NCBI RefSeq assembly: GCF_000765475.1
Contig: NZ_JRHO01000014.1
Span: 93,574 to 157,573 of the forward strand
Direction of reading: 5' to 3'
Length of the DNA: 64,000 bases
Origin: Methanococcoides methylutens
GTDB taxonomy: Archaea > Halobacteriota > Methanosarcinia > Methanosarcinales > Methanosarcinaceae
Positions within the stretch are counted from its first letter, which is position 1; the number at the start of each line of letters is the position of its first letter. Under the pieces are notes generated by a model. It saw only the letters and a program-made list of their open reading frames with translations. It was not told the DNA's origin and did no database searches. A program made the position numbers and the translations under genes. Positions 4,551 to 56,717 of the stretch are shown piece by piece.

Positions 4551-5738
4551 TTAATGCCTTCTGGAAAATAGAAGTATCAATATCGACATGCACAGAATTA
4601 AGGCTGCGTTCTGATCAAGATCTTTATTCTCTACAGGAGTATCATCAGCCCCTGTTATTTCAGGAATATCATCTGTTGACCGGAAAGCCACAATTGCAAA
4701 AGGCGAAAAAGCAGAAGTTTCTGCTTCAAAGATCACATCGCTGGTACTTTCATCGATCTTCTTTGTTGAAAGGGGTACCCACAGGTCCTGTTCATAACGA
4801 TACATAATTACAGAACTATCAGAGATCTGTTCCTCTTCAAGCCAGGATCGGTCTACCCTAAATCCGATAACTGCATCCTTTATATTACTCTCATTACTAT
4901 AACCGGGTTTACCCAACCAGATATTCACATCTTTGTAGACAATACCAGGAGGAGGTGATGAAACGAAACGAGAGGTCTGTTTAAGGACTTCAATCGTTGC
5001 TACAACATTGCCGGCATTTGTGAGAGATTCATAATTGATGTACATGATGGGATTTTCAGGCTTATCGAACTGATAGGTAACCTGAGAGCCAAGATACACA
5101 GCCAGGCTAGTTCTCTCCATTATCTCAACTTCCTGATAGGATCCGCTTGTGGTGGTAATTATGGCAGATTCCGAATCATCCTTGTCACTGGCCTTAGATC
5201 TGGTAGATGAAGCAGTATCAGCTCCGATAGAAACTGATCCATCAACAACATCTATAGGTATGATCTGCCCTTGAGTATCACTAACTACAACATTAGAGAG
5301 CTCCAGAGAACTTGTGCCTGATATATTGCCAGCGACCATCTGGATCATAGCAAAATATCCCGGTTCTGTAACGCTTGTCTTGTCAAGTATCAGACCATAT
5401 ACAGAATTAATGTCCCCATTTGAACTTTCGACCTCACCGGGATTGAACCAGACAATAGCACCTTCCTGCCTTAAGAATTCACCTTCTGAGATCTGGACAG
5501 CCTTTACAAGTTCACTGTCATAAGACAAGTCGAACTGGACACCAGCAACCGGACTATCAGGATCCAGATATACACCCACTGAAAAGTTCTGTCCTGCATC
5601 TACTGATTGAGAAATAGGCATTATGCTGACGTTTGTACTGGCACTGGCAATCCCACTAAGGCAGGTAATAGTAAACAAAGAAAAAAATAGTAAAGAATAA
5701 AATTTACTTTTTCCAGAGATGAAAATATACTTTTCCAT
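4551..5738 (-). CDS. Membrane-anchored cohesin-domain surface protein with PGF-pre-PGF domain
   Basis: 395 residues, secreted. A signal peptide (about residues 12-33) is followed by a cohesin-like domain (about 36-175) with the family's alternating beta pattern, including VAGVQFDLSYD. A serine/aspartate-rich linker comes next, then a domain of the PGF-pre-PGF type common in methanogen surface proteins (about 205-355). The protein ends in a single hydrophobic helix with RRH at the extreme C-terminus, so it stays anchored in the membrane facing outward. It lies 19 bases downstream of a second cohesin gene that also carries dockerin repeats, with an AAGGTG ribosome site. Cohesins bind dockerins in bacterial cellulosomes; here a surface receptor role is inferred. 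Confidence 0.85.
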   Translation of the reverse strand: MEKYIFISGKSKFYSLLFFSLFTITCLSGIASASTNVSIMPISQSVDAGQNFSVGVYLDPDSPVAGVQFDLSYDSELVKAVQISEGEFLRQEGAIVWFNPGEVESSNGDINSVYGLILDKTSVTEPGYFAMIQMVAGNISGTSSLELSNVVVSDTQGQIIPIDVVDGSVSIGADTASSTRSKASDKDDSESAIITTTSGSYQEVEIMERTSLAVYLGSQVTYQFDKPENPIMYINYESLTNAGNVVATIEVLKQTSRFVSSPPPGIVYKDVNIWLGKPGYSNESNIKDAVIGFRVDRSWLEEEQISDSSVIMYRYEQDLWVPLSTKKIDESTSDVIFEAETSAFSPFAIVAFRSTDDIPEITGADDTPVENKDLDQNAALILCMSILILLFSRRH

Positions 5739-5757
5739 CGGTACACCTTACCATTAA

Positions 5758-6414
5758 TCATTCCATATGTGACAATACCAACATCATATCAAGGACATTT
5801 ACAATATTGTCCTGATTTACATCCCATAGGGGATAAGGATATGAGGTGGTTTCATCGAAATGTTCTTCAACCAGATCATAATCGTCAAAGTTAACCACAT
5901 TATCCTGGTTTACATCAAAAATCAAGACTGATATTACTGTATTTGTTAATTCGAGATCCAGAGAATTGCCTTCCGGATCACTTATTATAACATCTTTCAG
6001 GACTAATTCTGACCTTCCATTTGCCTGCTCAGTTGCGGTTAACGTGATGGTAGCAAAAGTTGCTGGTGTTGCTACATCTGAAGCACCGAGAATGCAACCA
6101 TACGCATCATTTATAGAACCTGAATTTACAGAACCTGAAACAAAAAATGTATCCATACCACTTTGTTTGAACAGGCTTCCTTCACTCACATCTGATATTT
6201 GGAACTGAGAATTATCAAAAAGCAGATCGAACTGGATCCCTGCAATATCAACATCAGGAGAAACAAAGACATCGACTGTGAAAGTTTCCCCCGGCGCAAT
6301 GGCCTGTGATGATGGATTTAAAGTTACATCTGAGGCAGCTGCAGAAATGTTAGTTAGACCTACTAGCAATGTGACTATAGTTGCTACTATCAAGATCTTT
6401 TTTATGTTAGACAT
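5758..6414 (-). CDS. Secreted cohesin-dockerin protein
   Basis: 218 residues. A signal peptide (1-28) is followed by a cohesin domain (about 29-165) clearly related to that of the next gene (shared AGIQFDL versus AGVQFDL, and SEGxxxxQ). The C-terminus is a dockerin module with two calcium-loop repeats, DVNQDNVVNFDDYD and DVNQDNIVNVLDMM, separated by about 17 residues. There is no membrane anchor, so the protein should be released or held through its dockerin. AAAGGA precedes the ATG. The pair could form an anchored receptor (next gene) plus an adaptor carrying both binding halves. Archaeal cohesins and dockerins are known, but their ligands are mostly not. Confidence 0.88.
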   Translation of the reverse strand: MSNIKKILIVATIVTLLVGLTNISAAASDVTLNPSSQAIAPGETFTVDVFVSPDVDIAGIQFDLLFDNSQFQISDVSEGSLFKQSGMDTFFVSGSVNSGSINDAYGCILGASDVATPATFATITLTATEQANGRSELVLKDVIISDPEGNSLDLELTNTVISVLIFDVNQDNVVNFDDYDLVEEHFDETTSYPYPLWDVNQDNIVNVLDMMLVLSHME

Positions 6415-6983: not shown

Positions 6984-7667
6984 ATGGTTATTAAAACATT
7001 AGAATCGTTAACTCATCCCTTTTCTTTATCGATCTATAAATTATGGAATAAGAACGATACCCTTATTTTTTTAGTTGATCTGGAAATGGATGATCAATTA
7101 GAGTTATCAGATCTAAGCAGCGATGAAAAAGAATATCTGAACACACTTAAAACAAATTATTTTCGAAAAAGGTTCATAGCATCTCGATCGTCCCTGAAAT
7201 TTATTCTTTAGCATATCCTTAAAAAAAGATCATTATTAGATATCTCCCTCTATAGAAATGATACCGGGCGTGTGTGCGTACACAAACATGATGATATTTA
7301 TATCTGTATCTCATACACCGACAGCCTGGTTGCTATTTCAATATCAAAAATGAAAACAGGAATTGATATTGAATACATAAGACCGATACACTTAAAAAAT
7401 GATCCGAAACTTTTGCAGAATACAGAATCTAAAAGAGATATGTTTCAAAAAGACAATGTTGATACACTGAAAAATTGGACATTGAGAGAAGCATATTGTA
7501 AACTGACAGATCAGAGTATGCTAGCATGTTTGAATAAAGAAATTGACTTCAATGGTATCGATCATCAAGAAATTGTCATAAATAACAGATATGTATTATC
7601 TGTTGCTTTTGCTTCAAAAAATAACAAGATCAATATATGCCATCTCCAAAAAAGTATCACCAGTTAA
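6984..7667 (+). CDS. Sfp-type 4'-phosphopantetheinyl transferase with one in-frame UAG (possible pyrrolysine)
   Basis: Transfers phosphopantetheine from CoA to a serine of a carrier protein. One reading frame of 227 codons is open except for TAG at 7209-7211 (codon 76). On both sides the protein follows the Sfp fold order: RKRFIASRSSLKFIL before the UAG, TGR plus an IYICISYTD strand after it, then GIDIE (residues 126-130; Mg-binding D128 and E130) and WTLREAYCK (165-173; catalytic E169 and K173). There is no frameshift. In Methanosarcinaceae UAG can be read as pyrrolysine, so this may be a full-length enzyme; otherwise it is an amber-disrupted gene. A GAAAGG ribosome site precedes the ATG. 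The carrier-protein substrate is probably the ACP gene that follows. Confidence 0.8.
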
Positions 7668-7884
7668 ATGACGAAACTACTCCGAAAGTATATAATTTTT
7701 TTAGATACGGAATGGATAATTTTGATATATAGCTGCCTAATTAAATAGTAGAGATAAATCATTAGCAAATCGAAGAAATTGTTTGCCATAAGAACATCTT
7801 ATATACGATTGAAGTTATTTTGTTTATGGGGAAGTAGTTCAAACAGCTATGAAGCATAGAGTATTCCTTATACATATACTACAT

Positions 7885-7896
7885 GGCTTTGTTGAA
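7885..7896. repeat. Insertion-sequence end remnant
   Basis: GGCTTTGTTGAA resembles the terminal inverted repeat of insertion sequences in methanosarcinas, and is close to GGCTTTGTAGAAA at 39232 and 47295. No transposase is attached, so this is a solitary remnant or a chance match in the short gap between the PPTase and ACP genes. Confidence 0.35.
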
Positions 7897-7953
7897 TTAA
7901 TGATGCATTATTATGCTCTTTAAATAATGAATATGTTGAATGGGTTGACAAAC

Positions 7954-8199
7954 ATGGATGAAATTAAAGAAGATATAATGACATATTTGCAAAATAAATC
8001 TTTTATGGACAGTAGTACACAATTAAATGATGATGATTCTTTAACGATGAAAGGAATTATCGATTCAATTGGATTGATCGAATTTATAGATTTTATTTCT
8101 GATAAGTATTCCATAGAGATTCCTGAAGACCTATTAACTCCGGATAATTTTGATTCAATCAACGGAATTGTAAAACTTGTCCAAAAATTGACAAAGTGA
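7954..8199 (+). CDS. Acyl/peptidyl carrier protein
   Basis: Small carrier protein of 81 residues (90 if the ATG at 7927 is used). It shows the four-helix carrier fold and the attachment motif GIIDSIGLIEF, whose serine (residue 38 from this start) receives the phosphopantetheine arm. The acidic N-terminal MDEIKEDI looks like the natural first helix, which is why I prefer 7954; neither start has a strong ribosome site. It lies four bases before the AMP-forming ligase gene and downstream of the PPTase gene. Most archaea lack ACP-dependent fatty acid synthesis, so a dedicated carrier protein with its own transferase points to a specialised pathway. Confidence 0.85.
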   Translation: MDEIKEDIMTYLQNKSFMDSSTQLNDDDSLTMKGIIDSIGLIEFIDFISDKYSIEIPEDLLTPDNFDSINGIVKLVQKLTK

Positions 8200-8203
8200 T
8201 GCT

Positions 8204-9682
8204 ATGAGAATTGATGAATATATTGCAAAACATGCTAAAGAAGCTCCTCAAAAAACTGCACTGGAAGAGAAGGACAGATCAATTTCTTATAGTCTTCTTG
8301 ATGAAGCTATAAATACTATAACAGCAGAAATTGATGATTTTGATCATTGCAAATTTGCGATCTTTGCAGAATCAGGTATAGAATATATTCAGGCCCTAAT
8401 GGCAGTTTACCGATCGAATAACATCGCTGTACCCCTCCCGGTGGAACTGACAGAATCTAATATTAGAGAGATACTTAATGCTAACCAGATCAATAATATT
8501 ATTGTCACCGAACAGCAATATTCGAGATTTGAAGGCAACTTCTTTGAAGATTTTACTACTGTGATCCACATTTCAAAGGATTCCTCTGTGAATACTTTGC
8601 GTAAAAATGCAATTAGTGAAAGCAATAATGATCAACTACGACTTGTAATGTACACATCCGGCACTACAGGAGCTCCAAAAGGGGTCATGCTAAGTGATGA
8701 AAATCTAATAGCAAATGCAAATTCCATAATAGAAGTACTTAGCATAACACCAAAGGACAAAGCTGCACAAGTAATATCTCCACACCATGCTTTTGGAAAC
8801 TCAATAATAAATTCCCAGTTGGTTGCAGGTGGTTCTATTAAGATAGGTGGCCTTACTTTTCTCGAATCGACCTTTAAACTTGTAGAATCGGGAGTAACTA
8901 TATTTTATGGGGTTCCAAGTACCTACCGCATTCTTCTAAAATATCCTTCTAGCTTCCAGAGATCATTCAGGAACGTCCGACTTGCTGCATCTGCAGGCGG
9001 TGCTATGGAAGTCGAAATTATAGATCAGATCAAGCAGTTGAATGACAGGATCGAGATAATTCCAATGTATGGACAGACGGAAGCAACAGCAAGACTTTCT
9101 TACCTCCCATCAAAAGACCTGGAAAAATATCCTGATGCAATAGGCAGACCTATCCCAGGGGTTGAACTTGATGTGGTTGATGATAATAAAATGCCAGTTG
9201 AACCCGGCGTTACAGGAGAATTGATCGCCAGGGGAAAGAACATACTGATAGGTTATCTTAATGATGAAGAAGCTACCCGTAAAAAAGTGATCGACGGCTG
9301 GATGTACACCGGCGACCTGGCAAAAAAGTTGCCAAATGGTTACTTTAAATTATTGGGTCGTAAGGATGACCTGATCAAAGTTGCTGATCATCGTATAAAT
9401 CCAAGAGAGGTTGAAAAATATATTGGGAAAAATAATGAAGTTTCAGACGTATTCATCGTCCCGGTCGATCACGAATACCTTGGAAATGCAATCAGTCTAA
9501 TGGTAATCCCAACTCAGGATACAGAAGTTGAAGCATTATATTCTTTTTGCAGAAAAAACCTGCCTGGTTTCCTGTGTCCACTGGAAATAATTCTTATCGA
9601 GAACTTGCCACTGAGTAAAAGTGGAAAAATATCTAACAGGTCTATAATAGAGGAGTATCAAAATGTCAAAGCTAACATGTAA
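8204..9682 (+). CDS. AMP-forming acyl-CoA/acyl-ACP ligase (ANL superfamily)
   Basis: Adenylates a carboxylic acid and passes it to a thiol, here probably the phosphopantetheine arm of the adjacent ACP. The 492 residues contain the ANL motifs: YTSGTTGAPKG (from residue 150), YGQTEA (near 290), the hinge TGD followed by LGRKDD (near 375-390), and the C-terminal catalytic lysine in SGKIS (near 475). The substrate pocket is not readable, so the acid is unknown. The start ATG is four bases after the ACP stop, preceded by a TGATG ribosome site. The last 20 bases overlap the next gene, giving a compact ACP-ligase-amidotransferase block. Confidence 0.9.
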   Translation: MRIDEYIAKHAKEAPQKTALEEKDRSISYSLLDEAINTITAEIDDFDHCKFAIFAESGIEYIQALMAVYRSNNIAVPLPVELTESNIREILNANQINNIIVTEQQYSRFEGNFFEDFTTVIHISKDSSVNTLRKNAISESNNDQLRLVMYTSGTTGAPKGVMLSDENLIANANSIIEVLSITPKDKAAQVISPHHAFGNSIINSQLVAGGSIKIGGLTFLESTFKLVESGVTIFYGVPSTYRILLKYPSSFQRSFRNVRLAASAGGAMEVEIIDQIKQLNDRIEIIPMYGQTEATARLSYLPSKDLEKYPDAIGRPIPGVELDVVDDNKMPVEPGVTGELIARGKNILIGYLNDEEATRKKVIDGWMYTGDLAKKLPNGYFKLLGRKDDLIKVADHRINPREVEKYIGKNNEVSDVFIVPVDHEYLGNAISLMVIPTQDTEVEALYSFCRKNLPGFLCPLEIILIENLPLSKSGKISNRSIIEEYQNVKANM

Positions 9683-10676
9683 GAAATGTATTTTAGATTC
9701 AGACATTCCTGGTATAACAATAAACGAGGAAAGTGGCCTTTGCCAGTTCTGTGAGAGCTATAAACCCATGTCTCCTGATGAAAAGAAGGAATATTTGGAG
9801 ATCATAGGAAAAATGCTTGAAGAAAAGAGTGGAAAAGGAGAATATGATGTTATTTTTGCACTTTCCGGTGGAAAAGACTCCTCATATGGACTCTATAAGC
9901 TGAAAAAGGAGTACCCATTCCTTAACATCCTTGCAATTCAGTTTGATAATGCCTTCATTTCAGAAGCTGCTGTCGCTAATGCAAAAAAGATGTGTGAGAT
10001 CGTTGGCTGCGATTTTTTTAAGCTGACAATGAAAGAAGAAGCACTTTGCGATACTTTTCGAAAAGCAGCCGGATCTACCAATGCATATTCAAAATTTGCC
10101 AGATATCGAGCCAGTGATATCTGCAACACATGCATAAGTATCATCAAACAGAAGCTGATAGAACAGGCAATTATTCATAAAGCACCATTCATTGTTTTTG
10201 CTTTCACATCAGGCCAGGCCCCTAATCCCATAATTGACCTTAAGCCCAGTTTCATAAAGTGGTCCCGGGATCTTTTTGAGAAGCAGCTCCAAAATATAGG
10301 TGTAGAGGACAAGGATGAGAGTTTCCTTCTAAAAAGTGAGATTATAAAAAGCATAGATAAAGACGCCACTCCGGTTATTTTGCACCCAATGTGCCTGTGG
10401 GATTATAATGAAGATAAGATAGTGGAGAAGCTAATTGATCTCGGATGGATGCCTCCAAAGATCAATGACAGTAATTCAACGAACTGCCTTTTAAATGCAT
10501 TTGCCTGTCAGAATCATATCAATAAATATGACATCCATCCATACGCTTTCGACATAGCAGGCCTTGTGAGAAGCGGGGATATGACCCGGGAAGAAGGATT
10601 GGAGAAATTACATAAAGAATTGTCAGAGCCATTGATAGAAATGGCTGCAAAGAAACTTGAAATGGACCCGGAATAA
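9663..10676 (+). CDS. PP-loop amidotransferase, N-acetyl-sugar amidotransferase (PseA/WbpG) type
   Basis: 337-residue ATP pyrophosphatase. An N-terminal zinc ribbon (CKKC at residues 6-9, CQFC at 27-30) precedes the PP-loop LSGGKDSS (67-74). The zinc ribbon plus later cysteine motifs (ICNTC, NCLLNAFAC) match the group that amidates sugars in pseudaminic/legionaminic acid and O-antigen pathways (PseA, WbpG). Such enzymes adenylate a carbonyl oxygen and replace it with nitrogen supplied by a glutaminase or ammonia. No glutaminase partner is visible here. GGAG stands eight bases before the ATG, inside the end of the ligase gene. The link to an ACP system is unusual; the substrate is unknown. Confidence 0.8.
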   Translation: MSKLTCKKCILDSDIPGITINEESGLCQFCESYKPMSPDEKKEYLEIIGKMLEEKSGKGEYDVIFALSGGKDSSYGLYKLKKEYPFLNILAIQFDNAFISEAAVANAKKMCEIVGCDFFKLTMKEEALCDTFRKAAGSTNAYSKFARYRASDICNTCISIIKQKLIEQAIIHKAPFIVFAFTSGQAPNPIIDLKPSFIKWSRDLFEKQLQNIGVEDKDESFLLKSEIIKSIDKDATPVILHPMCLWDYNEDKIVEKLIDLGWMPPKINDSNSTNCLLNAFACQNHINKYDIHPYAFDIAGLVRSGDMTREEGLEKLHKELSEPLIEMAAKKLEMDPE

Positions 10677-10756
10677 ACTTCCATACAAATGGGGACGTAT
10701 CAATATTCTAAACCAGACACCATCATATCGTGCAAATTATTCCAGTGGGGGACATT

Positions 10757-11725
10757 ATGAAAATAATTGATGAACTAAACAAAGATGCAGAAAAGAACGC
10801 ATCTCAGATCAGGACATTCATTGAAGATAGAGTAAAGGACTTTAAGAAAAAGGGGATTGTTGTAGGAGTTTCGGGTGGAATTGATTCTGCGGTTATACTT
10901 GCGCTGGCAGTTCAGGCTGTAGGTAAGGAGAATGTTTACGGATTAATACTTCCTGAAGAGGAATCAGCTGCATCCAGCAAAGAACTTGGAGCAAGACTTT
11001 GTGAATCAATGGATGTTTCATATGAAGAAGTCCCGATCACTCCAATATTGCAAGCACTTGACACATACGGTAAAAAGGATCAGATAATAAAGAGAACCTG
11101 TCCGGAATATGATCCGAATATCCATAAGACCTCATTGGTCCTGCCCAGTCTCTTAGAGAATGATATGTTGACCATTCCATCCATAAGGCTGGTAAAAGAT
11201 GATGAAGTGGTTGCAAAGAACAGATTGAAAGCAAAGGACTATCTAGAACTGATCGGCATCCAGAATGTAAAACAAAGATCAAGAATGATGATCCAGTATC
11301 TATATGCAGAGAAGAATAATTATCTTGTGTGTGGTACCACTAATAAGACCGAATATCTTCTGGGTCAGTTCGTGAAATATGGGGATGGTGGAGTGGATAT
11401 CGAACCTCTGTCAGACTGTTACAAGACCCAGGTCTATGCATTGGCAAATTTCCTTGGCATAGACAAGGAAATAATAGAAAGGCCACCAAGCGCTGATACG
11501 TGGAGTAGCTTCACGTCTGATGAAGACTTCTTCTGGCGTATGCCGATACATGTTATGGACCAGCTGCTATATTCACAGGAACATGACCTGCCCATGGAAA
11601 TAATTGAAAAGAATACAGAACTGTCAGAAGAAAAAATAAACAAAGTAAAAAGAGGTATTGACAAAATAAAGAGTGCTTCCAAATACATCACATCAGCGCC
11701 TCCTATTTGTTATCTTGACAAGTGA
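10757..11725 (+). CDS. NAD(+)-synthase-like PP-loop amidotransferase, divergent
   Basis: NadE-family enzyme of 322 residues that would adenylate a carboxylate and amidate it. The PP-loop VGVSGGIDSA lies at residues 36-45. GTTNKTE and KYGDGGVDIEPLSD, both typical of NAD synthase, follow, then PPSADTW. The region between roughly residues 100 and 165 is longer than usual. The ATG at 10757 follows a GTGGGGG stretch and is preferred over an in-frame GTG at 10730. It is the second PP-loop enzyme in a row in this cluster. It may be the cell's NAD synthase, but placement between a sugar-amidotransferase-like gene and a FabG-like gene suggests pathway-specific amide formation (inference). Confidence 0.8.
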   Translation: MKIIDELNKDAEKNASQIRTFIEDRVKDFKKKGIVVGVSGGIDSAVILALAVQAVGKENVYGLILPEEESAASSKELGARLCESMDVSYEEVPITPILQALDTYGKKDQIIKRTCPEYDPNIHKTSLVLPSLLENDMLTIPSIRLVKDDEVVAKNRLKAKDYLELIGIQNVKQRSRMMIQYLYAEKNNYLVCGTTNKTEYLLGQFVKYGDGGVDIEPLSDCYKTQVYALANFLGIDKEIIERPPSADTWSSFTSDEDFFWRMPIHVMDQLLYSQEHDLPMEIIEKNTELSEEKINKVKRGIDKIKSASKYITSAPPICYLDK

Positions 11726-11819
11726 TCCTGAATCAAGCTAAAAATATCAAAGCTAAAGATATCAGATCATTATGATTCAAACTTGAAATATTCAAAGAAA
11801 GATAGGAAGAAAGGAAAAC

Positions 11820-12560
11820 ATGCTCACAGATAAAGTCGTACTGATCACAGGTGCCAGTCGCGGAATTGGTAGAGCTACGGCTTTACTGGCAGCAGAGAAC
11901 CATGCACATGTCATTATTAACTACAAAGAAAGTGAAGATAAAGCAGCTGAACTTGTAGAAAATATTACTGAGAAAGGACTTCAAGCTACCATGATAAAAG
12001 CAGATGTTTCTGTTGAGAATGAAGTCAAAGAAATGTTTGAGTTTATTAAAGAACGATATTCCAAACTTGATATCCTTGTAAACAATGCCGGGATATTGAA
12101 AAGTAATCTGTTGGCGATGACAAGTACTGAGTTATTCGATCAGACTATAGATGTTAATTTAAAAGGAACCTTCCTATGTAGTCGGTACGCATCAAACATG
12201 ATGAGAAGAAAAAGATCAGGAAAGATAATTAATCTCTCATCGGTGATAGGCTTAAATGGAAATGCAGGCCAAACAGTATATTCGGCAAGCAAAGCAGGAG
12301 TAATCGGATTTACAAAGTCTGCAGCAAAGGAACTTGGCAGATATGGAATTACTGTTAATGCTATTGCACCGGGTTTCATTGAAACTGATCTGACCAGAGA
12401 TGTTAAAGAAGAAGTTCGCGAAAAATTGATAGCAAACATAGCTCTTGGTCGAAGTGGTAACCCAGAAGATGTTGCAAAAGTGGTTCTGTTTTTAAGCTCA
12501 GATCTTGGGAATTACATCAGTGGCCAGGTAATATCTGTTGATGGATGTCAGACGATCTGA
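11820..12560 (+). CDS. fabG: 3-oxoacyl-ACP reductase-like short-chain dehydrogenase (FabG family)
   Basis: NAD(P)H-dependent reductase of 246 residues, the usual FabG length. It has the Rossmann glycine motif TGASRGIG (10-17), NNAG (near 90), the catalytic serine in NLSSVIG, YSASKAG with the catalytic tyrosine and lysine, and a C-terminal SGQVISVDG typical of 3-oxoacyl-ACP reductases. GAAAGGAA precedes the ATG. As the last gene of the ACP cluster it probably reduces a 3-oxo group on an acyl-ACP, although many SDRs of this shape act on other alcohols. No ketosynthase, dehydratase or enoyl reductase is nearby, so this is not a complete fatty acid synthase. Confidence 0.85.
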   Translation: MLTDKVVLITGASRGIGRATALLAAENHAHVIINYKESEDKAAELVENITEKGLQATMIKADVSVENEVKEMFEFIKERYSKLDILVNNAGILKSNLLAMTSTELFDQTIDVNLKGTFLCSRYASNMMRRKRSGKIINLSSVIGLNGNAGQTVYSASKAGVIGFTKSAAKELGRYGITVNAIAPGFIETDLTRDVKEEVREKLIANIALGRSGNPEDVAKVVLFLSSDLGNYISGQVISVDGCQTI

Positions 12561-34301: not shown

Positions 34302-37037
34302 TCATTTCAATTTTGGATCTCTATATTTTCCCCTGCTTTTTCTTATACGTGCAGCTACCACTTTATATTCGGGACACAAGGCATCACTGTCGCAAATATC
34401 AGATGTTAAATTATTGATCATAACCTCAGGAAAGTGGAAAGTAGTACTTAATATTCCTTTTTTTACCGCAGTTGAGATTCGGGCTTTGATATCTACTTTC
34501 CCGCGTGGTGATTCTACACAAACCATGTCGCCACTGTTGATCAAATATTCTTTTGCATCATCGGGGTGTATCAAAAGTACATCTTCAGCGATCAGTTGTT
34601 CATTGGGCGTACGACGGGTCATTACTCCACTGTTGTAATGTTCCAGTCCACGGTTAGTTGTAACAATGAAGGGATAATCTTTGCTATGTTCCTGTAGCTC
34701 CACCGATTCCTTATAGGTCTGCTTATAAAATGTCCCCATACCTCGTTTAAATGTTTCTTTATGTAATATGGGAGTATCAATGCCGCCATCATTCACAGGC
34801 CACTGCAATCCGTTCTCGCCCAGATTTTCCCAGGTAATGCCTTTAAAAAAAGGAACAATTTGAGCAATTTCATTTAATACGCCTTGTGCAGAGTAATCCG
34901 GTTGCGGATAACCCATGCACTGCATGATCTCTGTGAGTACCTGTCCATCGGGTTTGGTGCCGGGTAAATGTTCAACCACTCTGTTCACGCGTTGTACACG
35001 ACGTTCTCCATTGGTGAATGTACCTTCTTTCTCCAAAAACGAAGCACATGGCAATATAACGGTTGCGAGCTTAGCGGTTTCGGTCATAAACAATTCCTGA
35101 ACCACCAGGAGATCCAGTTTGCTCAATGCTTTTATCACCATTTGGGTATTCGGATCTGTTTGTACCACATTTTCCCCAATGATCCACATCGCTTTCAGTT
35201 TATCCTGTAGCGCAGATTCGTACATCTGTGGAATTTTATAACCGATATGTTTGGGTAGTTTGGCACCATAAAAATTCTCATACAAGGCATGCATTTCATC
35301 GTTGGTCACATCCAAATAACCGGCACCCTGATCTGGCTGACAACCCATATCTGCTGCACCCTGCACGTTGTTTTGTCCACGTAATGGATTTACACCCACG
35401 CCCGGACGACCGATATTGCCAGTGATCATGGCCAGATTGGCAATCAACATAACAGTTGAGGTTCCCTGTGAATGTTCGGTTACTCCCAATCCATGGAAAG
35501 ACATCGCATTTTTTGCGGAGCCATAAGCAATTGCCGCTTCACGCACAAGATCGCGATCCACACCAGTTATACTTTCCAATTCATTAATATTCAGCGAGAG
35601 AATATGTTGTTTAAATTCTTCAAATCCTTCGGTGCGTTGTTCTACAAATGAAATATTAACTAAATTTTCTTTAATAATATAATAAAAGAAAAGATTCAGC
35701 ATGGCCACATTGGTACCGGGTTTTAGTTGCAGATGATAATGTGCATAACGGGCCAGTTCGGTTTTACGAGGATCAATTACGATCAGTGTTGTGTCCTTTA
35801 TGGCAGCCTGCTTAATTTTTGCACCTGTAACCGGATGTGCATCGGTAGGATTGGCTCCGATCACCAGCATACAATTGGTGCATTTAATGTCTTCAATAGA
35901 ATTGGTAGCGGCACCGGTGCCAAAGGTGCGTTGCATGCCTAAGGCAGTGGGAGAGTGGCATATACGAGCACAGCCATCAATATTGTTAGTGCCGATCACT
36001 GCACGCATAAATTTTTGCATCAGATAATTTTCTTCGTTGGGACAACGTGATGATGAAATACCGGCAATGTGATCAGGTCCATTTTCTTTAATGATCTCAT
36101 TCAGTTTAGAGGTGATAAAATCATAGGCTTCATCCCAGGTGGCTTCAACAAATGCACCATTCTTTTTGATCAATGGTGTTCTGATACGATCGGGGTGATT
36201 ATAAAACGAAAATGCAAATCGCCCTTTTAAACACATGTGACCAGGATTAACTTTGCTATCCCACGGGGCTTGTATCGATTTTACTTTTCCATCTTTAACA
36301 GATACATCTAAATTACATCCTACGCCGCAATAGGTGCAAATGGTTCGGATCTTTTTATCCACAACAATGGATTTGGATTCATATACATCCGATATTGCAG
36401 AAGTAGGACAGGCTTGCGCACAGGCTCCACAACTTACACAAGACGATTCTATAAAGGATGTATCCATACCTTTTATGATCCTGCTTTCAAATCCTCTGCC
36501 GGCCATACTTAGCACAAACATTCCCTGAACTTCGTCACAGGCTCTTACACAACGTGAACAATTGATGCATTTAGACAGATCTGAAGTCATGTAAGGATGA
36601 CTCAGGTCTTTGGTTCTGTTCAAATGATCTTTACCGGCCGGGTATCGTGCATCTCTCACACCCACACGTGCAGCTACTTCCTGCAGCTGGCAATTGTTGT
36701 TCACTTCACAGGTTAAACAATCCAGCGGATGGTCGGTAAGTACTAATTCAATAATATTTCTACGCAATTTTAAAATGCGTTCTGATGAAGGATAGATGTG
36801 CATTCCTTCTGCGACCGGTGTATGACACGAGGCCACCACTTTAGTGGGCCCGTCTTGTTTTAATGCAACATCTACACTGCACACTCTGCAGGCACCAAAG
36901 GGTTTTAGGTGGCTCACATCACATAAGGTCGGAATTAGTTTATCACCTTGTGAACGTTTCACAAATTGTAATATAGTTTCGCCTTCCTGAATGGCGTGTG
37001 GATGATCATTGATATAGGCTAGTTTGTTCATGTGCAT
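34302..37037 (-). CDS. fdhA: NAD-dependent formate dehydrogenase, catalytic alpha subunit (bacterial type)
   Basis: Oxidises formate to CO2 at a molybdenum or tungsten bis-MGD centre. 911 residues. NuoG-like N-terminus: 2Fe-2S ligands C39, C50, C53, C71; a His-Cys 4Fe-4S site H103, C107, C110, C116; two ferredoxin clusters at C157-C167 and C200-C210. Catalytic part: 4Fe-4S site C234, C237, C241, C269 (CTYCGVGC), active-site C360-H361 in ARICHSPTA (cysteine, not selenocysteine), C-terminal molybdopterin cap. No Shine-Dalgarno site before the ATG, unlike neighbouring archaeal genes. The protein resembles bacterial (FdsA-like) enzymes and not the F420-dependent FdhA of methanogens. An intact gene; transfer from bacteria is inferred. 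Confidence 0.9.
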   Translation of the reverse strand: MHMNKLAYINDHPHAIQEGETILQFVKRSQGDKLIPTLCDVSHLKPFGACRVCSVDVALKQDGPTKVVASCHTPVAEGMHIYPSSERILKLRRNIIELVLTDHPLDCLTCEVNNNCQLQEVAARVGVRDARYPAGKDHLNRTKDLSHPYMTSDLSKCINCSRCVRACDEVQGMFVLSMAGRGFESRIIKGMDTSFIESSCVSCGACAQACPTSAISDVYESKSIVVDKKIRTICTYCGVGCNLDVSVKDGKVKSIQAPWDSKVNPGHMCLKGRFAFSFYNHPDRIRTPLIKKNGAFVEATWDEAYDFITSKLNEIIKENGPDHIAGISSSRCPNEENYLMQKFMRAVIGTNNIDGCARICHSPTALGMQRTFGTGAATNSIEDIKCTNCMLVIGANPTDAHPVTGAKIKQAAIKDTTLIVIDPRKTELARYAHYHLQLKPGTNVAMLNLFFYYIIKENLVNISFVEQRTEGFEEFKQHILSLNINELESITGVDRDLVREAAIAYGSAKNAMSFHGLGVTEHSQGTSTVMLIANLAMITGNIGRPGVGVNPLRGQNNVQGAADMGCQPDQGAGYLDVTNDEMHALYENFYGAKLPKHIGYKIPQMYESALQDKLKAMWIIGENVVQTDPNTQMVIKALSKLDLLVVQELFMTETAKLATVILPCASFLEKEGTFTNGERRVQRVNRVVEHLPGTKPDGQVLTEIMQCMGYPQPDYSAQGVLNEIAQIVPFFKGITWENLGENGLQWPVNDGGIDTPILHKETFKRGMGTFYKQTYKESVELQEHSKDYPFIVTTNRGLEHYNSGVMTRRTPNEQLIAEDVLLIHPDDAKEYLINSGDMVCVESPRGKVDIKARISTAVKKGILSTTFHFPEVMINNLTSDICDSDALCPEYKVVAARIRKSRGKYRDPKLK

Positions 37038-37093
37038 TGAATTTGTTTCAACATTCTGATTAGCTATTGTTTATAGTTGAATGTGAAAATGGT

Positions 37094-38743
37094 TTATTTA
37101 ATGTAATCTTTTAATTCTTTGTCAAAGTAGTGTAGCGCATTTTTAACGGGCAAGGGCAGTCCGCCTCCCAAAGCGCATAAAGAGCCTTGTTGCATAGTGT
37201 CCAGTAAGTCACCAAATAATTGCTCATCTATTTTGTAATTGCTTTCAGTTGCTTTTTGTAGTAGCTCAAAGCCACGTGTAGAGCCTAATCTGCAGGGGAA
37301 ACATTTTCCGCAGCTTTCATGTGCCACGAATTGGAACAAGTGCTGTATGTATTCGATCATCGGGAAGCTTTCAGGAATACTTACAATAGAAGCATGCCCC
37401 AATAAAAAGCCATTTTCAGCAAAGGATTCAAATGAGATATGTAAGGAGTTGATCATTGATACCGGAACCAAGCCCCCCAATGGACCTCCAATATGCAAAG
37501 CTTTTATATCGCTTTTGAAGCCACCGCCCAATTGTTCAATTACGGTTTTAAGAGGAGTGCCCATCTCAACTTCATAAATCCCGGGTTTATTAAAGAAACT
37601 ATCCAACGAAACCAATTTGGTGCCTTTAGATTGTGAAGAGCCAATCTGGTTAAACACATCGCCACCTTGTTCAACAATAAAGGGAACATTGGCAAAGGTT
37701 TCAACATTGTTCACCAGCGTAGGCATATTAAATAGACCTTGTTGTGCCGGGAAAGGTGGACGAATACGTACTTCGGGGCGTTGTCCTTCTATGGATGAAA
37801 GCAATGCAGTTTCTTCACCGCATACGTAGGCACCCTGAGCTTTGATCAACTTAAGTCGGAACGAGAAACCTGAGTTGAGAATATTATCTCCCAGTATATC
37901 CAAATCTTCCAGTTCACTGATGCTTTGTTTGATGATCATTTGTGATTCGGGATACTCGGCTCTGATATAGACTACACCAGTATTCGCACCAGTTACGTAA
38001 CCCGTTATCAGCATGCCTAATAAAACTCTCAACGGTTGTTGTTCCAGTAAATAACGATCAGAGTAAGCCCCAGGATCACCCTCATCGGCATTGCAAACAA
38101 TGAATTTACGTTTGCCTTCAGCTTTTTTAGTAGCTTCCAGCTTAGATCCCATCGGGAAACCGGCACCGCCGCGGCCTCCTAACTGTGCTTTCTTGATCTC
38201 ATCCAGAACTTGATCAGGACTTAGCGTAAATAAGTCTTGTAAATGTTTAGTAAAAGTTTCAACAGTCAATGCGGTTTGCATTAAGATGACTGTTCCTAAC
38301 GCTTGAGTTGCATATGCTTCTTTTGTAGCAACTTTTGATTTAATTACTGAAGCAATGTCATCAATATCCTTACCCGAATAATTATGCCCTTTGTAGTAGA
38401 ATGCACTATTCTCGTGGCATCTGCCCAGGCAACTCATTTCACCGATCTCATCTTCTTTCAAATGCTTTTTTAATTCATTTTTTGTCCGTGACTGTGTACC
38501 GGCGCATAAGCAAGCGTTTCCGTTGCATACATATGCTTTTTTGTTTTTGTTTTCAGGTCGGAGAAGATCATAAAATGAAAGCGTGCCATAGACATTGGCT
38601 TCACCCATTAGATTGTCTTTAGCAATTTGTTGTATCTCCTGCGCATCAGGCGTAACGCTCGCTTCAGCCAACTGACCTAATTTCTCAAACAGGTTTTCAT
38701 GTAAACCTTTACGACCGGATAAATAACTTAAATTTTCTGACAT
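37094..38743 (-). CDS. NuoE-NuoF fusion: NADH-reacting diaphorase subunit of formate dehydrogenase
   Basis: 549 residues. Residues 1 to about 145 are a NuoE/FdsG-like thioredoxin domain with a 2Fe-2S site (C73, C78, C105, C109). From about 150 it is NuoF/FdsB: FMN loop GGRGGAGFPMGS (189-200), NAD-binding NADEGDPGAYSDR, then the SLBB region and a C-terminal 4Fe-4S site ESCGKCFPCRLG plus a later cysteine. It takes electrons from the alpha subunit and reduces NAD. No Shine-Dalgarno site, and 56 bases upstream of the alpha gene, so the two form an operon. The fusion lets two genes encode what is three subunits (FdsGBA) in many bacteria. Confidence 0.9.
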   Translation of the reverse strand: MSENLSYLSGRKGLHENLFEKLGQLAEASVTPDAQEIQQIAKDNLMGEANVYGTLSFYDLLRPENKNKKAYVCNGNACLCAGTQSRTKNELKKHLKEDEIGEMSCLGRCHENSAFYYKGHNYSGKDIDDIASVIKSKVATKEAYATQALGTVILMQTALTVETFTKHLQDLFTLSPDQVLDEIKKAQLGGRGGAGFPMGSKLEATKKAEGKRKFIVCNADEGDPGAYSDRYLLEQQPLRVLLGMLITGYVTGANTGVVYIRAEYPESQMIIKQSISELEDLDILGDNILNSGFSFRLKLIKAQGAYVCGEETALLSSIEGQRPEVRIRPPFPAQQGLFNMPTLVNNVETFANVPFIVEQGGDVFNQIGSSQSKGTKLVSLDSFFNKPGIYEVEMGTPLKTVIEQLGGGFKSDIKALHIGGPLGGLVPVSMINSLHISFESFAENGFLLGHASIVSIPESFPMIEYIQHLFQFVAHESCGKCFPCRLGSTRGFELLQKATESNYKIDEQLFGDLLDTMQQGSLCALGGGLPLPVKNALHYFDKELKDYIK

Positions 38744-49795: not shown

Positions 49796-50689
49796 ATGAA
49801 AGCAAAGAGAATCCCAGACAAAAATGAAGTAAGCAGGAAATTGAAGAAAGAGCATGTCAAAGACAAGATATTCAATACATTATTAGATCATATAATAATT
49901 ATATTTTTATTTTTTGTACTGCCGATATCAGTAATACTTTTAGCTGACTACCAAGGCTGGATAAAGATTCCTGTAATTATTTTAGATTTTCTCAAACTAG
50001 TTGATACCATCCTTATTTCCTATACAATTGCTACAATATTCATCAAATTAACTGTGAATGTAATCCCAAAGATGTTTGAAAGTATTGGGAAGAGAGAAGA
50101 AAAAATTCTTTTGAGAAAGATCTACATCGGGTTTATTTATGCTTTCACAAGTGTAGTTGTATTCTGGCAGGTTGGAATCGATACACAAAACATCGTGATA
50201 TTTTTGGGTCTTGTTGCAACAGGATTTGCCTTTGCCATTAAAGAAATTATTCTCTCTTATTTTATCTGGTTCATACTGCTTACCAAAAAACCGTTTAAAA
50301 TAGGAGACTACATTGCTGTCGGAGAGGAAGAAGGGGAAGTAAAACACATAGGATTATTTTATGTTGTAATTTATCCTACCAAATGTAGAGAGTTCTACAA
50401 GATACCAAACAAGATCTTTCTGGAAAGTCCTATTAAAAATTATGGAAAAGGATTTTTTGAATCATCCTTTGACTATTATATCAAGGATATTCCTGAAAAT
50501 TTAAACTATCACATGGAAAAAATGGTGGAAAGAGCAAAAGTCAAAGAGAATCTTGATGTTCGCCTGAAATTAGACTCAGATAGCAATGGGTTGAAACTTA
50601 CAGCATATTACAAATCCACATTCAGCGAAAGGGAAAATGTAAAACACAAATTGCTAAGTATAATAGTTGAAGGAGTTAATACCCTTTAA
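49796..50689 (+). CDS. MscS-family mechanosensitive channel (1)
   Basis: 297 residues. Two N-terminal helices, a further helix pair, and the pore-lining region VIFLGLVATGFAFAIKEIILSYF followed by the beta domain start KKPFKIGDYIAVGEEEGEVKHIG (quoted motifs about residues 138-180). The family's usual LQ/P-x-x-N anchor is IPNKIF. AAGG precedes the ATG. Opens when membrane tension rises and releases solutes. Monocistronic, AT-rich. Confidence 0.88.
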   Translation: MKAKRIPDKNEVSRKLKKEHVKDKIFNTLLDHIIIIFLFFVLPISVILLADYQGWIKIPVIILDFLKLVDTILISYTIATIFIKLTVNVIPKMFESIGKREEKILLRKIYIGFIYAFTSVVVFWQVGIDTQNIVIFLGLVATGFAFAIKEIILSYFIWFILLTKKPFKIGDYIAVGEEEGEVKHIGLFYVVIYPTKCREFYKIPNKIFLESPIKNYGKGFFESSFDYYIKDIPENLNYHMEKMVERAKVKENLDVRLKLDSDSNGLKLTAYYKSTFSERENVKHKLLSIIVEGVNTL

Positions 50690-50886
50690 CTAGAAACTGG
50701 AGTGGTGACACAATAATCTTTGTTTCGAAATTTTCGAATGAAATATAAGCATACTTGTAAAAGGCCATATATATTGTAGAAACGCCATTTGCGACTATTT
50801 AAAGTTAGTATGACCAATAAAATTATGTAAAATGAGAAATCCTTCTCAATCTTATTACTTCTCATAGACAATCAAAAACAAAATTA

Positions 50887-51393
50887 ATGATACTGAAGAC
50901 CATTATGTACAAAGATGAACAAACATTAATACTTGGATGGAGGGAATGGGTCTCTTTGCCCGAACTCGGAATTCACGCTATCAAAGCAAAAGTTGATACA
51001 GGAGCAAAGACATCTGCACTACATGCCTTCAATGTTGAGCATTATGAAGAGAATGGTGTTGAAATGGTCCGTTTTTCAGTCCATCCTATCCAGAAAAACC
51101 AGAATTTTCAGGTCAAGTGCACAGCACGCTTAAAGGACCGTCGCCAAGTGACGGATTCAGGTGGTCACAAAGAGATGCGTTATGTTATTGAAACGGATGT
51201 TGTTATTGCATCCAACCGCTATCCCATCGAATTAACGCTTACAGATCGCGACACCATGCGCTTTAGGATGTTGCTGGGACGCCGTGCAATGGAAAATCGA
51301 GCTGTAGTTGATCCAGGGGCGTCTTACCTGAACGGAAAACTTGATGCATATACAATATACAATATACAATCTGAAAATGGGGTTGCTAAATGA
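50887..51393 (+). CDS. Retropepsin-like RimK-associated protein (putative ATP-dependent zinc protease family)
   Basis: 168 residues (or 162 from the ATG at 50905). [13 protein letters not shown] near the N-terminus, the aspartic-protease-like motif [13 protein letters not shown] (about 34-46) and [15 protein letters not shown] near the C-terminus define the PF05618-like family. It overlaps rimK by four bases (ATGA). In bacteria this family travels with RimK and an M14 deacylase; a hydrolase for the glutamate tails made by RimK is a common proposal but not shown. Confidence 0.85.
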
Positions 51394-52295
51394 AAATTGG
51401 CTTATTATCAAGAAATCGTAATCTATACTCATCTCGTCGCTTAATTGAAGCAGCCGAAGAGAGAGGGCATGAAGTTCAGGTAATAGATGTGTTGAGAGCT
51501 TACATGAACATAACATCCAACAAACCTACCATACACTACAAAGGAGAAAAACTTGAAGGGTTTGATGCAGTTATCCCACGTATTGGTGCATCTGTTACAT
51601 TCTATGGTACTGCAGTACTTCGACAATTCGAAATGATGGGTGTATATCCGTTGAATGAATCGGTTGCTATCACCCGTTCCAGAGACAAGCTTCGTTCCTT
51701 GCAGCTGCTTTCCCGTAAAGGTATAGGACTTCCTATAACAGGATATGCCAGCAAGCCTGATGATATCAAAGACATGATCAAGATGGTAGGTGGCGCACCT
51801 CTTGTTGTCAAATTACTTGAAGGTACACAGGGTATTGGTGTGGTACTAGCAGAAACACAAAAAGCTGCAGAAAGTGTGATAGAAGGTTTCATGGGTGTAA
51901 AAGCTAACATTCTAGTCCAAGAATATATCAAAGAAGCAGAAGGAGCTGACATTCGTTGTTTTGTCATAGGGAGCAAAGTTGTTGCAGCTATGAAAAGGCA
52001 AGCTCCAAAGGGCGAATTCAGATCTAACATACACAGGGGAGGTTCGGCAGAGATCATCAGGATAACTCCAGAAGAACGTTCAACCGCTGTACGTGCCGCA
52101 AAAATCATGGGGCTCAATGTTGCTGGTGTTGACCTATTACGCTCCAATCATGGTCCTTTAGTAATGGAAGTTAATTCTAGCCCTGGCCTAAAAGGTATAG
52201 AAGAGGCAACAGGTAAGGATATTGCAGGCATGATCATTGATTATATCGAGAAGACAAGTGAAGTTGGAAATACACGAACCCGTGGAAAGGGCTGA
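51390..52295 (+). CDS. rimK: RimK-type ATP-grasp alpha-L-glutamate ligase
   Basis: 301 residues, nearly the E. coli RimK length. Adds glutamate residues to a protein C-terminus or makes poly-glutamate. ATP-grasp motifs: [11 protein letters not shown] (glycine-rich loop), [34 protein letters not shown] and the metal-binding [14 protein letters not shown]. The N-terminus MKIGLLSRN and [11 protein letters not shown] are strongly bacterial in character. Archaeal RimK relatives usually serve F420 or lysine biosynthesis; this one sits in the bacterial-type triad, so transfer is likely. Confidence 0.9.
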
Positions 52296-52298
52296 TCC

Positions 52299-53345
52299 AT
52301 GCAGAAACCAATCACAATTGCAGGCATAACCATTCAGCCAGGAACAAGAAGATCTATTGAATTGCCGATTCCCAGCTTTTATACTCATACATCAGCATCA
52401 ATGCCAGTCCATGTTATACATGGAAACAGACCTGGTCCCTGTCTAGTTATTTGTGCTGCAATCCATGGAGATGAGCTCAATGGCGTGGAGATCATCCGCC
52501 GCGTCCTTGCACATAAAACGCTCAACAACATAAAGGGGACACTTATTGCAATTCCAATTGTAAATGTGTTCGGTTTTGTCTCTCGCTCCCGCTATTTGCC
52601 AGACAGACGCGATCTGAACAGATCATTTCCGGGTTCAAAATCAGGTTCAATGGCTTCTCGGCTGGCGAATATACTTATGACAGAGATAATAGACCATTGC
52701 ACTCATGTTATCGACCTCCATACAGGTACTGTTGGCCGAGAGAATCTGCCCCAGATACGTGCCTGTTTGAGAGTAGATAACGAAACTGAAGCGATAGCTC
52801 GTGCTTTTAGTGTACCAGTAATAATTAATTCTGAACTGCGCGATGGATCATTACGTGAAGCAGCTCGTGAGAATAATATCCCAGCCCTGTTATATGAGGC
52901 TGGTGAAGCCCTGCGATTTGATGAAGTTAGTATTCGGGCAGGCGTAAGGGGCATCCTTGGAGTAATGTATTATTTAGGCATGAGACCAAAAAGCAGGAAA
53001 AGAAAAGAGTACAAAACTCTGATCTCCAGATCAACACAATGGATTAGAGCTCCTGAAAGTGGAATACTACGTTCAGTTGTTCCTTTAGGAACTCTGGTAA
53101 AAAAAGGAGAAATATTAGCCTATATAAATGATCCATTAGGTGAGATCGAAATGAGAGTACTAAGTTCAGTATCTGGGATAGTCATTGGAAGAACGAACTT
53201 GCCACTTGTGCATGAGGGTGAAGCTATATTCAACATCGCTAAATTTTCGAAGGAAGAAGAGATATCCAATTACATTGAGAACGATCATTATGAACTTGAT
53301 CCTGAAACTGATGAAATAAAAAGTAAGCAAGTTCCTCTGGTATAA
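52299..53345 (+). CDS. M14-family succinylglutamate desuccinylase/aspartoacylase-like deacylase
   Basis: 348 residues, three bases after rimK. Zinc-carboxypeptidase-like motifs: HGDELNGVE (His and Glu ligands, near 56), RDLNRSFPG (near 108) and DLHTG (third ligand, near 144), with the catalytic glutamate in LLYEAGE. The C-terminal 100 residues form a lipoyl-like beta barrel (RAPESGILRSVVPLG, VKKGEILAYI) seen in this subgroup. Likely removes or adds acyl/glutamyl groups in concert with RimK. Confidence 0.88.
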   Translation: MQKPITIAGITIQPGTRRSIELPIPSFYTHTSASMPVHVIHGNRPGPCLVICAAIHGDELNGVEIIRRVLAHKTLNNIKGTLIAIPIVNVFGFVSRSRYLPDRRDLNRSFPGSKSGSMASRLANILMTEIIDHCTHVIDLHTGTVGRENLPQIRACLRVDNETEAIARAFSVPVIINSELRDGSLREAARENNIPALLYEAGEALRFDEVSIRAGVRGILGVMYYLGMRPKSRKRKEYKTLISRSTQWIRAPESGILRSVVPLGTLVKKGEILAYINDPLGEIEMRVLSSVSGIVIGRTNLPLVHEGEAIFNIAKFSKEEEISNYIENDHYELDPETDEIKSKQVPLV

Positions 53346-53436
53346 ATTTCTGAATTATGACATAAACAAAGATGGTTAAATAAAATTAGGATGTAACTTA
53401 CAATATTATATATGTTCACATTCCCACAATTAAGAC

Positions 53437-54393
53437 TTATTTTTTTATGACCTGAGCTGATTTCATGATATCAAGACTGGTTGCAGTACCAACATTAATA
53501 TCCTCTTCTTGATCATAAGCCTCTAGAAGTTTCTGTACCAAATTATTCCTTATTTTCCTTCGCTGTCGAGGATCCACTACGTATCTAAGACGTATGTCGA
53601 TCCAGTTTTCCTGCAATTTCATATACAATTTCGTTTCGACATCATATGTAGTGATGAAATATTTCTCACCCATATTTAATAGTTCTTTTTTTGCAGATTC
53701 CTCAAAACCGTATAAGGTTTCTTTTGCAACCTTTAATGCAATATCTTCTGCTTTCTTCCAGTTGCTTCCATACACCAGCATAATCTGTAATTCGTCCCAG
53801 ATAAAGGAGAAGTCCTTCGTGTAGTTCTTGACCTTATCACTTAAAATGAAACTATTTGGTAGCTGGACTAACCTTCCAGTGTATTGATCACCGTCAACCC
53901 ATTCCTGTATCTCCATTAGGGAAGTGCTGAAGTTCCTTATGTCAAGAACATCACCAATTATGTTATCCACTTCAATCCTATCACCAGCTCTGAAAGGACG
54001 GGATACGAGAATAATGATACCACCTGCTATACTTTTCAAGAGATCCTGTAGAGCTATGGCAATACCTGCGCTAAGTATACCATATGCCACGATAAGGCCA
54101 GTTGTCTCCTTGAACCAAACTGCAAAAAGAAATGCAAGAGCGAGGAATGTAATAATTATAGAGATAGCTTTGCGGAAAGTATACCTTTCCTTTGTATCAT
54201 GTATCCTTACTCTGATAACATTCTCAATAACAGCTTTTATTGCATAAAATATCAGAATAATGATCACAGACTGTAATGACTTTATCAAGAAGAATTCGTA
54301 ATCAATTAAAAAATCCGTAAAATAAATGACATATGCAATGAGTATTGCTATTAATGATAAAACAATCAGATTAAACCCTCTTAATAACCCCAT
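53437..54393 (-). CDS. MscS-family mechanosensitive channel (2)
   Basis: 318 residues. Three to four transmembrane helices, pore helix with GILSAGIAIALQDLLKSIAG and beta domain with RPFRAGDRIEVDNIIGDVLDI, then LVQLPNSFIL (the PN motif). The C-terminal cytoplasmic part is soluble and charged. Convergent with the M14 gene (91-base gap). Acts in release of osmolytes on hypo-osmotic shock. Confidence 0.92.
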   Translation of the reverse strand: MGLLRGFNLIVLSLIAILIAYVIYFTDFLIDYEFFLIKSLQSVIIILIFYAIKAVIENVIRVRIHDTKERYTFRKAISIIITFLALAFLFAVWFKETTGLIVAYGILSAGIAIALQDLLKSIAGGIIILVSRPFRAGDRIEVDNIIGDVLDIRNFSTSLMEIQEWVDGDQYTGRLVQLPNSFILSDKVKNYTKDFSFIWDELQIMLVYGSNWKKAEDIALKVAKETLYGFEESAKKELLNMGEKYFITTYDVETKLYMKLQENWIDIRLRYVVDPRQRRKIRNNLVQKLLEAYDQEEDINVGTATSLDIMKSAQVIKK

Positions 54394-54637
54394 GAATTAA
54401 TTTATGATCTATAATGCTATTACATTTTCCCCATAAAATCATCGAAATGGTTGTTAAATGTCCACAAATATTGAAATATTAATACTCCCATAAAGTTGAA
54501 AGATGGGGTTATTGGTAACAAGTTCTCCATGGCATCGATTCAGAAAGATATTCCTATCCTATGTTCCTAACCATCTCAGAGTAAGAAAGGAGAGATTTAG
54601 GAAATAAATATTCTATAAATAATAATTCAGGTGAAGT

Positions 54638-56181: not shown

Positions 56182-56224
56182 CTTTTTCTTTTTTAGATAT
56201 CTACTATTTGTTTTATTCGATATT

Positions 56225-56647: not shown

Positions 56648-56717
56648 TAAATCCACCCCATCTAAGGGATAGTTAGAAAGAATTCATCATCAACAAAAAG
56701 TAAAAAATAAGGAGAGA

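Follow-up and report, generated by a model that had tools for sequence, protein, structure and literature searches.

A run of six genes in the 2.5 Mb genome of the methanogenic archaeon Methanococcoides methylutens raises the question of what such an organism does with carrier-protein chemistry, which to our knowledge is rare in archaea. The run occupies positions 6984-12560 of the window, the 64,000-nucleotide stretch analysed here (G000:C14:93574-157573), and encodes a phosphopantetheinyl transferase (PPTase), an acyl carrier protein (ACP), an AMP-forming ligase, a PP-loop enzyme, an NAD-synthase-like enzyme and a FabG-like reductase. A first-pass annotation had described the genes as running in one direction and as forming an undescribed ACP-dependent pathway. 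We confirmed that all six lie on the + strand and that their families are supported by Pfam and NCBIfam models; the details required revision in that the open reading frame (ORF) of the PPTase carries an in-frame TAG codon and the starts of the ACP and NAD-synthase-like genes are shifted. Here we report that the run is one functional module conserved across genera together with its PPTase, and that its PP-loop enzyme is predicted to be a sulfur-inserting enzyme resembling CtaC, the thioamide synthetase of closthioamide biosynthesis, and not a sugar amidotransferase. The genes are as follows:

6984..7667, +, Sfp-type PPTase (PF01648); 227 residues with the TAG read through
7954..8199, +, acyl/peptidyl carrier protein; 81 aa, ORF open from 7927; related to ACP models
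8204..9682, +, AMP-forming ligase, predicted loader of the carrier protein (PF00501 and PF13193)
9663..10676, +, PP-loop (AANH) enzyme; Zn tetracysteine and C154/C157/C275; predicted CtaC-like sulfur inserter
10757..11725, +, predicted NAD-synthase-fold ammonia ligase (NF002048); insertion of ~70 residues, ORF open from 10730
11820..12560, +, FabG-like short-chain reductase (PF13561, 228.6 bits); accessory

Conservation of the module and its PPTase

A search for the gene order in relatives recovered the same succession of ACP, ligase, PP-loop and NAD-synthase-like genes in all 15 loci compared, at roughly 50-70% identity between genera (60-70% for several genera of the Methanosarcinaceae) and with differing flanks, in agreement with the proposal of an ACP-dependent pathway in a methanogen. 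Within the genus, purifying selection acts on every gene of the six (dN/dS 0.03-0.33). An order that persists between genera whose flanks are unrelated, together with selection on every gene, shows that the run reflects more than chance adjacency, and we conclude that it is real and constitutes one functional module. The PP-loop enzyme has orthologues in 10 of the 11 Methanococcoides genomes, and these extend to almost every genome of genus g13 (probably Methanosarcina) and to a few other genera. Modules are present in several copies with varied flanks, and one genome (G148) holds two. The PPTase gene mostly lies upstream of the ACP gene in the compared loci. The reductase, previously taken as part of the pathway, is better regarded as optional, being adjacent downstream in 11/15 loci and not beside the module in several Methanosarcina loci. 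The tight spacing described for the central genes holds for ACP and ligase (4 bp) and for ligase and PP-loop enzyme, which overlap by 20 bp; the subsequent gaps were corrected to 80 and then 94 bp. The PPTase gene ends 286 bp upstream of the ACP gene and may form a separate transcript.

The PPTase was assigned from a PF01648 match of 26 bits (cut-off 25) and from the GxDxE and WxxK/R-EAxxK motifs of Sfp-type enzymes, which are invariant in 13 orthologues, and it is the only PPTase detected in this genome. Using a profile of 13 PPTases we surveyed 185 genomes of the order, and co-occurrence was counted in 117 genomes with completeness of 90% or more and contamination of 5% or less. The PPTase and the PP-loop orthologue were both present in 42 of these and both absent from 75, with neither found alone in any (0/117; Fisher's exact P ~1e-32, a value that is not a true probability, the genomes being related). 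A sister genome of the same genus (G091) is without both module and PPTase. The PPTase of G095, of G097 and of genus g11 is encoded elsewhere in the genome, unlinked to the module, and the co-occurrence still holds; a decayed PPTase copy is left at the module of G097, and G095 likewise retains a decayed fragment. Because the co-occurrence persists where the PPTase is unlinked, the tie between the two is not merely physical: the PPTase belongs to the module, and they are gained or lost together. The earlier premise that archaea normally lack ACP pathways is, in the light of this distribution, too general. The gene set, its conservation, its motifs and the PPTase co-occurrence are established by sequence.

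The surroundings of the module vary. In many Methanosarcinaceae it is followed by a DUF362-plus-ferredoxin protein and a hexapeptide acyltransferase (L042 11965-13903, L044, L047, L078-L080), an arrangement not found in Methanococcoides. Outside the genus, relatives among the matches listed lie amid glycosyltransferases, flippases and UDP-sugar enzymes, and in Methanoregula-type genomes and other genera the near neighbours of the module include acyltransferases of the GNAT or hexapeptide kind as well as glycosyltransferases, a flippase and enzymes of UDP-sugar metabolism. The GC content of the cluster is ~7 points below that of its flanks in Methanococcoides and not so in most other genera; recent acquisition of foreign DNA was rejected as an explanation, the deficit being confined mostly to one genus and composition alone saying little. 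Divergent upstream of the module (window 4551-6414, - strand) are two cohesin-domain surface proteins, one with a dockerin and one with a PGF-pre-PGF domain, which account for two of the three cohesin domains of the genome. A link between these cohesin/dockerin proteins and the module was also rejected: cohesins are widespread, several module-bearing genomes are without any, and no co-occurrence was found across the order.

The PP-loop enzyme and its cysteine triad

The only family matched by the PP-loop enzyme is TIGR03573 (N-acetyl sugar amidotransferases, NASATs), with 97.8 bits against a cut-off of 203.2. The enzyme resembles the NASATs (WbpG/WbuX/PseA) in overall length, in its zinc tetracysteine (C6, C9, C27 and C30, invariant in 33 orthologues) and in its SGGxDS PP-loop (33/33 orthologues, residues D72 and S73), both elements being present in the solved LpNASAT (8WEX; PMC10607449). 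It differs from them in falling below the family cut-off, in its tie to a carrier protein, in the absence of a HisH/HisF2 ammonia partner from the cluster and in a [4Fe-4S]-type cysteine triad. The triad (C154, C157 and C275) is found in 33/33 orthologues, down to 48% identity, with all ten motif residues kept. These differences led us to abandon the earlier sugar-amidotransferase reading.

In a profile alignment C154 and C157 fall in register with the CxxC motif of a TtuA/NcsA-type protein encoded in the same genome. In the TtuA/NcsA class, three cysteines bind a [4Fe-4S] cluster used in sulfur insertion. The cluster enzyme thus shares the PP-loop and the CxxC...C triad with the TtuA/TtcA/NcsA tRNA thiolases, whereas it is tied to an ACP and not to tRNA, the genome having its own TtuA/NcsA. 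Another counterpart is offered by closthioamide biosynthesis in Ruminiclostridium cellulolyticum, which likewise employs a thiotemplate free of nonribosomal peptide synthetases (NRPSs), with a carrier protein, an AMP ligase and an AANH enzyme (PMC6772006). Compared by published residues, CtaC, the carrier-protein-dependent synthetase of that pathway, has its triad at C154, C157 and C284 and its PP-loop residues at D77 and S78 (PMC6772006), positions nearly equal to those of the enzyme described here. The carrier protein and its loading ligase are encoded directly upstream of the PP-loop gene, as for a CtaC-type synthetase. The module differs from the closthioamide pathway in its NAD-synthase-like enzyme, its FabG and its archaeal host, and neither the CtaD (ATP-grasp), CtaG, CtaJ and CtaA families nor any peptidyl-transferase or transglutaminase-like gene is represented among the six genes.

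The genomic context of more distant relatives separates with the triad. Triad-negative relatives from Massilia, Sphingomonas and a Desulfobacteraceae metagenome-assembled genome (MAG) (L177, L178 and L197) stand beside HisH and HisF-type genes; one from Agrobacterium (L176) has HisH in its cluster, the N-terminus of L183 is itself similar to class II glutamine amidotransferases, and L204 scores 393 bits to TIGR03573, over the cut-off, within a nonulosonic-acid-type cluster (the HisH, HisF, glutamine-amidotransferase and nonulosonate names at L197, L183 and L204 were assigned by eye from sequence). Triad-positive domains, on the other hand, are fused in NRPS-type proteins of Roseovarius and Streptomyces, and triad-positive enzymes neighbour an NRPS and a PPTase (L202) or a ThiF-like protein (L203). 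In the Roseovarius case (plasmid, L028 9424-17472), the domain sits within a large NRPS-annotated protein beside a CMP-nonulosonate-type cytidylyltransferase and a flippase. A Bacteroidota MAG (L205 5939-8383) encodes an operon of a NifS-type cysteine desulfurase, a TusA-like protein and a triad-positive "N-acetyl sugar amidotransferase", a candidate sulfur-transfer system. For three archaeal relatives with the triad (L179, L180 and L182), a scan of the neighbouring genes showed neither HisH nor HisF. Since triad-negative relatives lie beside HisH/HisF or carry a glutaminase-like domain of their own, and triad-positive ones lie with NRPS, NifS-TusA or ThiF-like proteins, the triad accompanies sulfur or carrier-protein settings, and relatives without it are found in ammonia settings. 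Phylogenetically, the enzymes of the module fall together with the NRPS-fused, NRPS-linked and NifS-linked proteins, with moderate support (86/89). A profile of the PP-loop enzyme run against 398 genomes sampled from one bacterial phylum retrieved only three relatives.

Carrier loading, amidation and the proposed pathway

The carrier protein has no Pfam match and matches several ACP models, all below cut-off. Its 4'-phosphopantetheine attachment site, DSI (D46-S47), is invariant in 13 orthologues, which also indicate that translation probably starts at 7954. A link to cispentacin biosynthesis was considered and rejected, the best ACP model (AmcB) scoring 46 bits against a cut-off of 80 and no type II polyketide synthase being present among the six genes. 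The ligase matches the AMP-binding model with 195 bits, and its TSGTTGxPKG motif and catalytic lysine are invariant in the relatives aligned. In an alignment with linear gramicidin synthetase it reads FGNS where the NRPS has FDIS, and the glycine (G198), invariant in 11 relatives, replaces the aspartate that anchors the alpha-amino group of the substrate in NRPS adenylation domains. This points to a carboxylic acid lacking an alpha-amino group as the probable substrate. Among free-standing enzymes of solved structure, the nearest relatives include oxalate- and malonyl-CoA ligases.

The NAD-synthase-like protein, whose start orthologues place probably at 10757 (322 aa), matches NF002048 with 447 bits (cut-off 313), and its AlphaFold model (pLDDT 91) has the fold of NadE, the NH3-dependent NAD synthetase, with 1xng and 3fiu (both NadE) as best PDB matches (Z 30). 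It shares the fold and the ATP site with NadE and differs in an insertion of ~70 residues, in the loss of NadE motifs (the GQTDE and C-terminal HKR of the genome's canonical NadE are replaced in 10/10 relatives aligned) and in being a second copy, beside an ACP. The housekeeping NadE is encoded separately and is canonical (G000:C9:47066, 279.7 bits). The cluster protein is most likely an ammonia-using ligase with a substrate other than that of NadE. A bacterial operon of asnB, ACP, AMP-ligase and NAD-synthase-like genes occurs in rhizobia, Anaerolinea and others (L050 5193-9969, L051 5028-9834, L052, L084, L086, L088, L090). It likewise unites an ACP and a ligase with a member of the NAD-synthase-like subfamily seen here, at ~35-37% identity, and has AsnB in place of the PP-loop enzyme. 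The operon adjoins minCDE in Rhizobium and Sinorhizobium (e.g. S. meliloti pSymB), and in Anaerolinea it lies inside a polysaccharide cluster, between glycosyltransferases and an O-antigen-ligase-like gene. The sixth protein scores 268-291 bits to FabG-like models.

We infer the following course, including its sulfur chemistry, the sequence of its steps, and what serves as substrate, product and acceptor. The PPTase would convert the carrier protein to its holo form, and the AMP ligase would load on it, as a thioester, a small carboxylic acid that is not an alpha-amino acid. The NAD-synthase-like enzyme would adenylate a carboxylate of the substrate and amidate it with ammonia, and the PP-loop enzyme, its C154/C157/C275 triad holding a [4Fe-4S] cluster, would adenylate the carbonyl oxygen and exchange it for sulfur. 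The result would be a thioamide, or a related thioacyl group, attached to the carrier, in the manner of CtaC in the closthioamide pathway. Where present, the FabG-like enzyme would reduce a keto group. The finished acyl group would then be released, or an acyltransferase, probably of the GNAT or hexapeptide type, would move it to a small molecule or a sugar of the cell surface; neither type is encoded in the cluster of this genome. We consider this account, in which a small acid is loaded on the ACP, amidated and given sulfur in place of its carbonyl oxygen, FabG being an optional reductase, somewhat more probable than otherwise.

The sulfur step itself, predicted from sequence and from analogy with CtaC, is the most likely activity of the PP-loop enzyme, and several observations weigh against it. 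The cluster lacks a gene for a sulfur donor, and no sulfur partner was found among the scanned neighbours of the three triad-positive archaeal relatives; L202 matches TIGR03573 only distantly (108 bits); the supporting clade has only moderate support, with some long branches and CtaC not in the tree; and the structure model of the enzyme, built from two sequences, reached a pLDDT of 46 and was not used. As regards the donor, archaeal NcsA also works with free sulfide. Should the enzyme instead be an ordinary NASAT that works jointly with the NAD-synthase-like enzyme to amidate either a sugar or an acyl group destined for a surface glycan, this would be in agreement with its sole family match, with the zinc tetracysteine and PP-loop common to NASATs (PMC10607449) and with the glycan genes that flank the module in several relatives. 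We regard this as unlikely, given the score below cut-off, the missing HisH/HisF2 partner and a triad that is invariant here and absent from the NASATs that accompany HisH/HisF or exceed the cut-off (L204). More improbable still is amidation only, with both ATP-pyrophosphatases using ammonia and the triad playing a structural role, e.g. as a second zinc site: the bacterial operon, with the glutamine-dependent amidotransferase AsnB where the PP-loop enzyme would be, speaks for it, and the register of the triad with TtuA/NcsA, its match to the CtaC residues and the triad-positive relative in the NifS-TusA operon speak against it. A chance adjacency of unrelated housekeeping genes, for which the housekeeping names of the NadE-like and FabG-like genes could be invoked, is already refuted by synteny across genera, by the PPTase co-occurrence and, for the NAD-synthase-like gene, by the separate canonical NadE, and we assign it almost no weight.

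The fate of the product is a further point of divergence. A diffusible small molecule (a thioamide that binds metal, signals or acts as an antibiotic), which is consistent with the sulfur step, would fit the resemblance to closthioamide chemistry, the frequent absence of adjoining glycan genes from Methanosarcinaceae modules and the several copies with varied flanks, reminiscent of specialised-metabolite genes; the module has no exporter, NRPS or release enzyme, and acyltransferases and polysaccharide genes adjoin it in other genera, as they do the related operon of bacteria, so that we treat such a product as a possibility deserving attention without expecting it. The product possibly decorates surface glycans instead, an option favoured because acyltransferases, glycosyltransferases, a flippase and UDP-sugar enzymes lie near the module in other genera; the cluster of this genome contains none of them. 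The surface-glycan link of the first-pass annotation is to that extent plausible, its basis being relatives outside the genus.

A putative pyrrolysine in the PPTase and the significance of the module

The PPTase ORF is broken in frame by the TAG at 7209-7211 (residue 76). The codon is common to three species, this one and two sisters (L032, L033), and three others have CAG (Gln) at the site. Read-through as pyrrolysine is much likelier than a pseudogene, because PylS is present in 11/11 genomes of the genus, TAG served as the stop in 0/150 ORFs examined, dN/dS 3' of the TAG is 0.18-0.29 among the TAG-bearing species, similar to that among the others, and the catalytic motifs of the PPTase lie C-terminal to the TAG position. 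Residue 76 is thus probably pyrrolysine. The PPTases of G090 and G096 also have an in-frame TAG, that of G090 (L041, 6988-7659 onward) at a different site, near the C-terminus; the site of the three sister species and that of G090 are probable pyrrolysine sites of separate origin.

Two further features of the window were noted by eye. At 34302-38743 (- strand) adjacent large ORFs resemble a NuoG/formate-dehydrogenase-type subunit and a NuoEF-type NAD-linked flavoprotein, a pair unusual for a methylotrophic methanogen, and at 49796-57638 several MscS-type mechanosensitive-channel-like ORFs surround RimK-like and aspartoacylase-like genes.

The pathway does appear to be undescribed, as first proposed: in the open-licence literature searched we found nothing relevant on these genes, or on any ACP pathway, in Methanosarcina, and no account of thiotemplated sulfur insertion in archaea. 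Its parts resemble known kinds, namely CtaC-like thiotemplate chemistry, and it is their combination, and such a pathway in archaea, that is apparently new to that literature. Only tentatively would we go as far as a thiotemplated pathway in which the Fe-S PP-loop and NAD-synthase-like enzymes jointly assemble a thioamide or amidine on the carrier, destined for surface glycans or for release, and which in part of one genus depends on a pyrrolysine-containing PPTase and is tied to methylamine-type metabolism. If the read-through is true, carrier-protein activation in the TAG-bearing species would depend on pyrrolysine. The module is present in almost all Methanosarcina genomes sampled, with two copies in one, and it appears to occur in a laboratory species amenable to genetics, which makes it open to genetic testing. 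For the family at large, the analysis suggests that many proteins annotated as N-acetyl sugar amidotransferases are sulfur-inserting enzymes, distinguishable by three cysteines.

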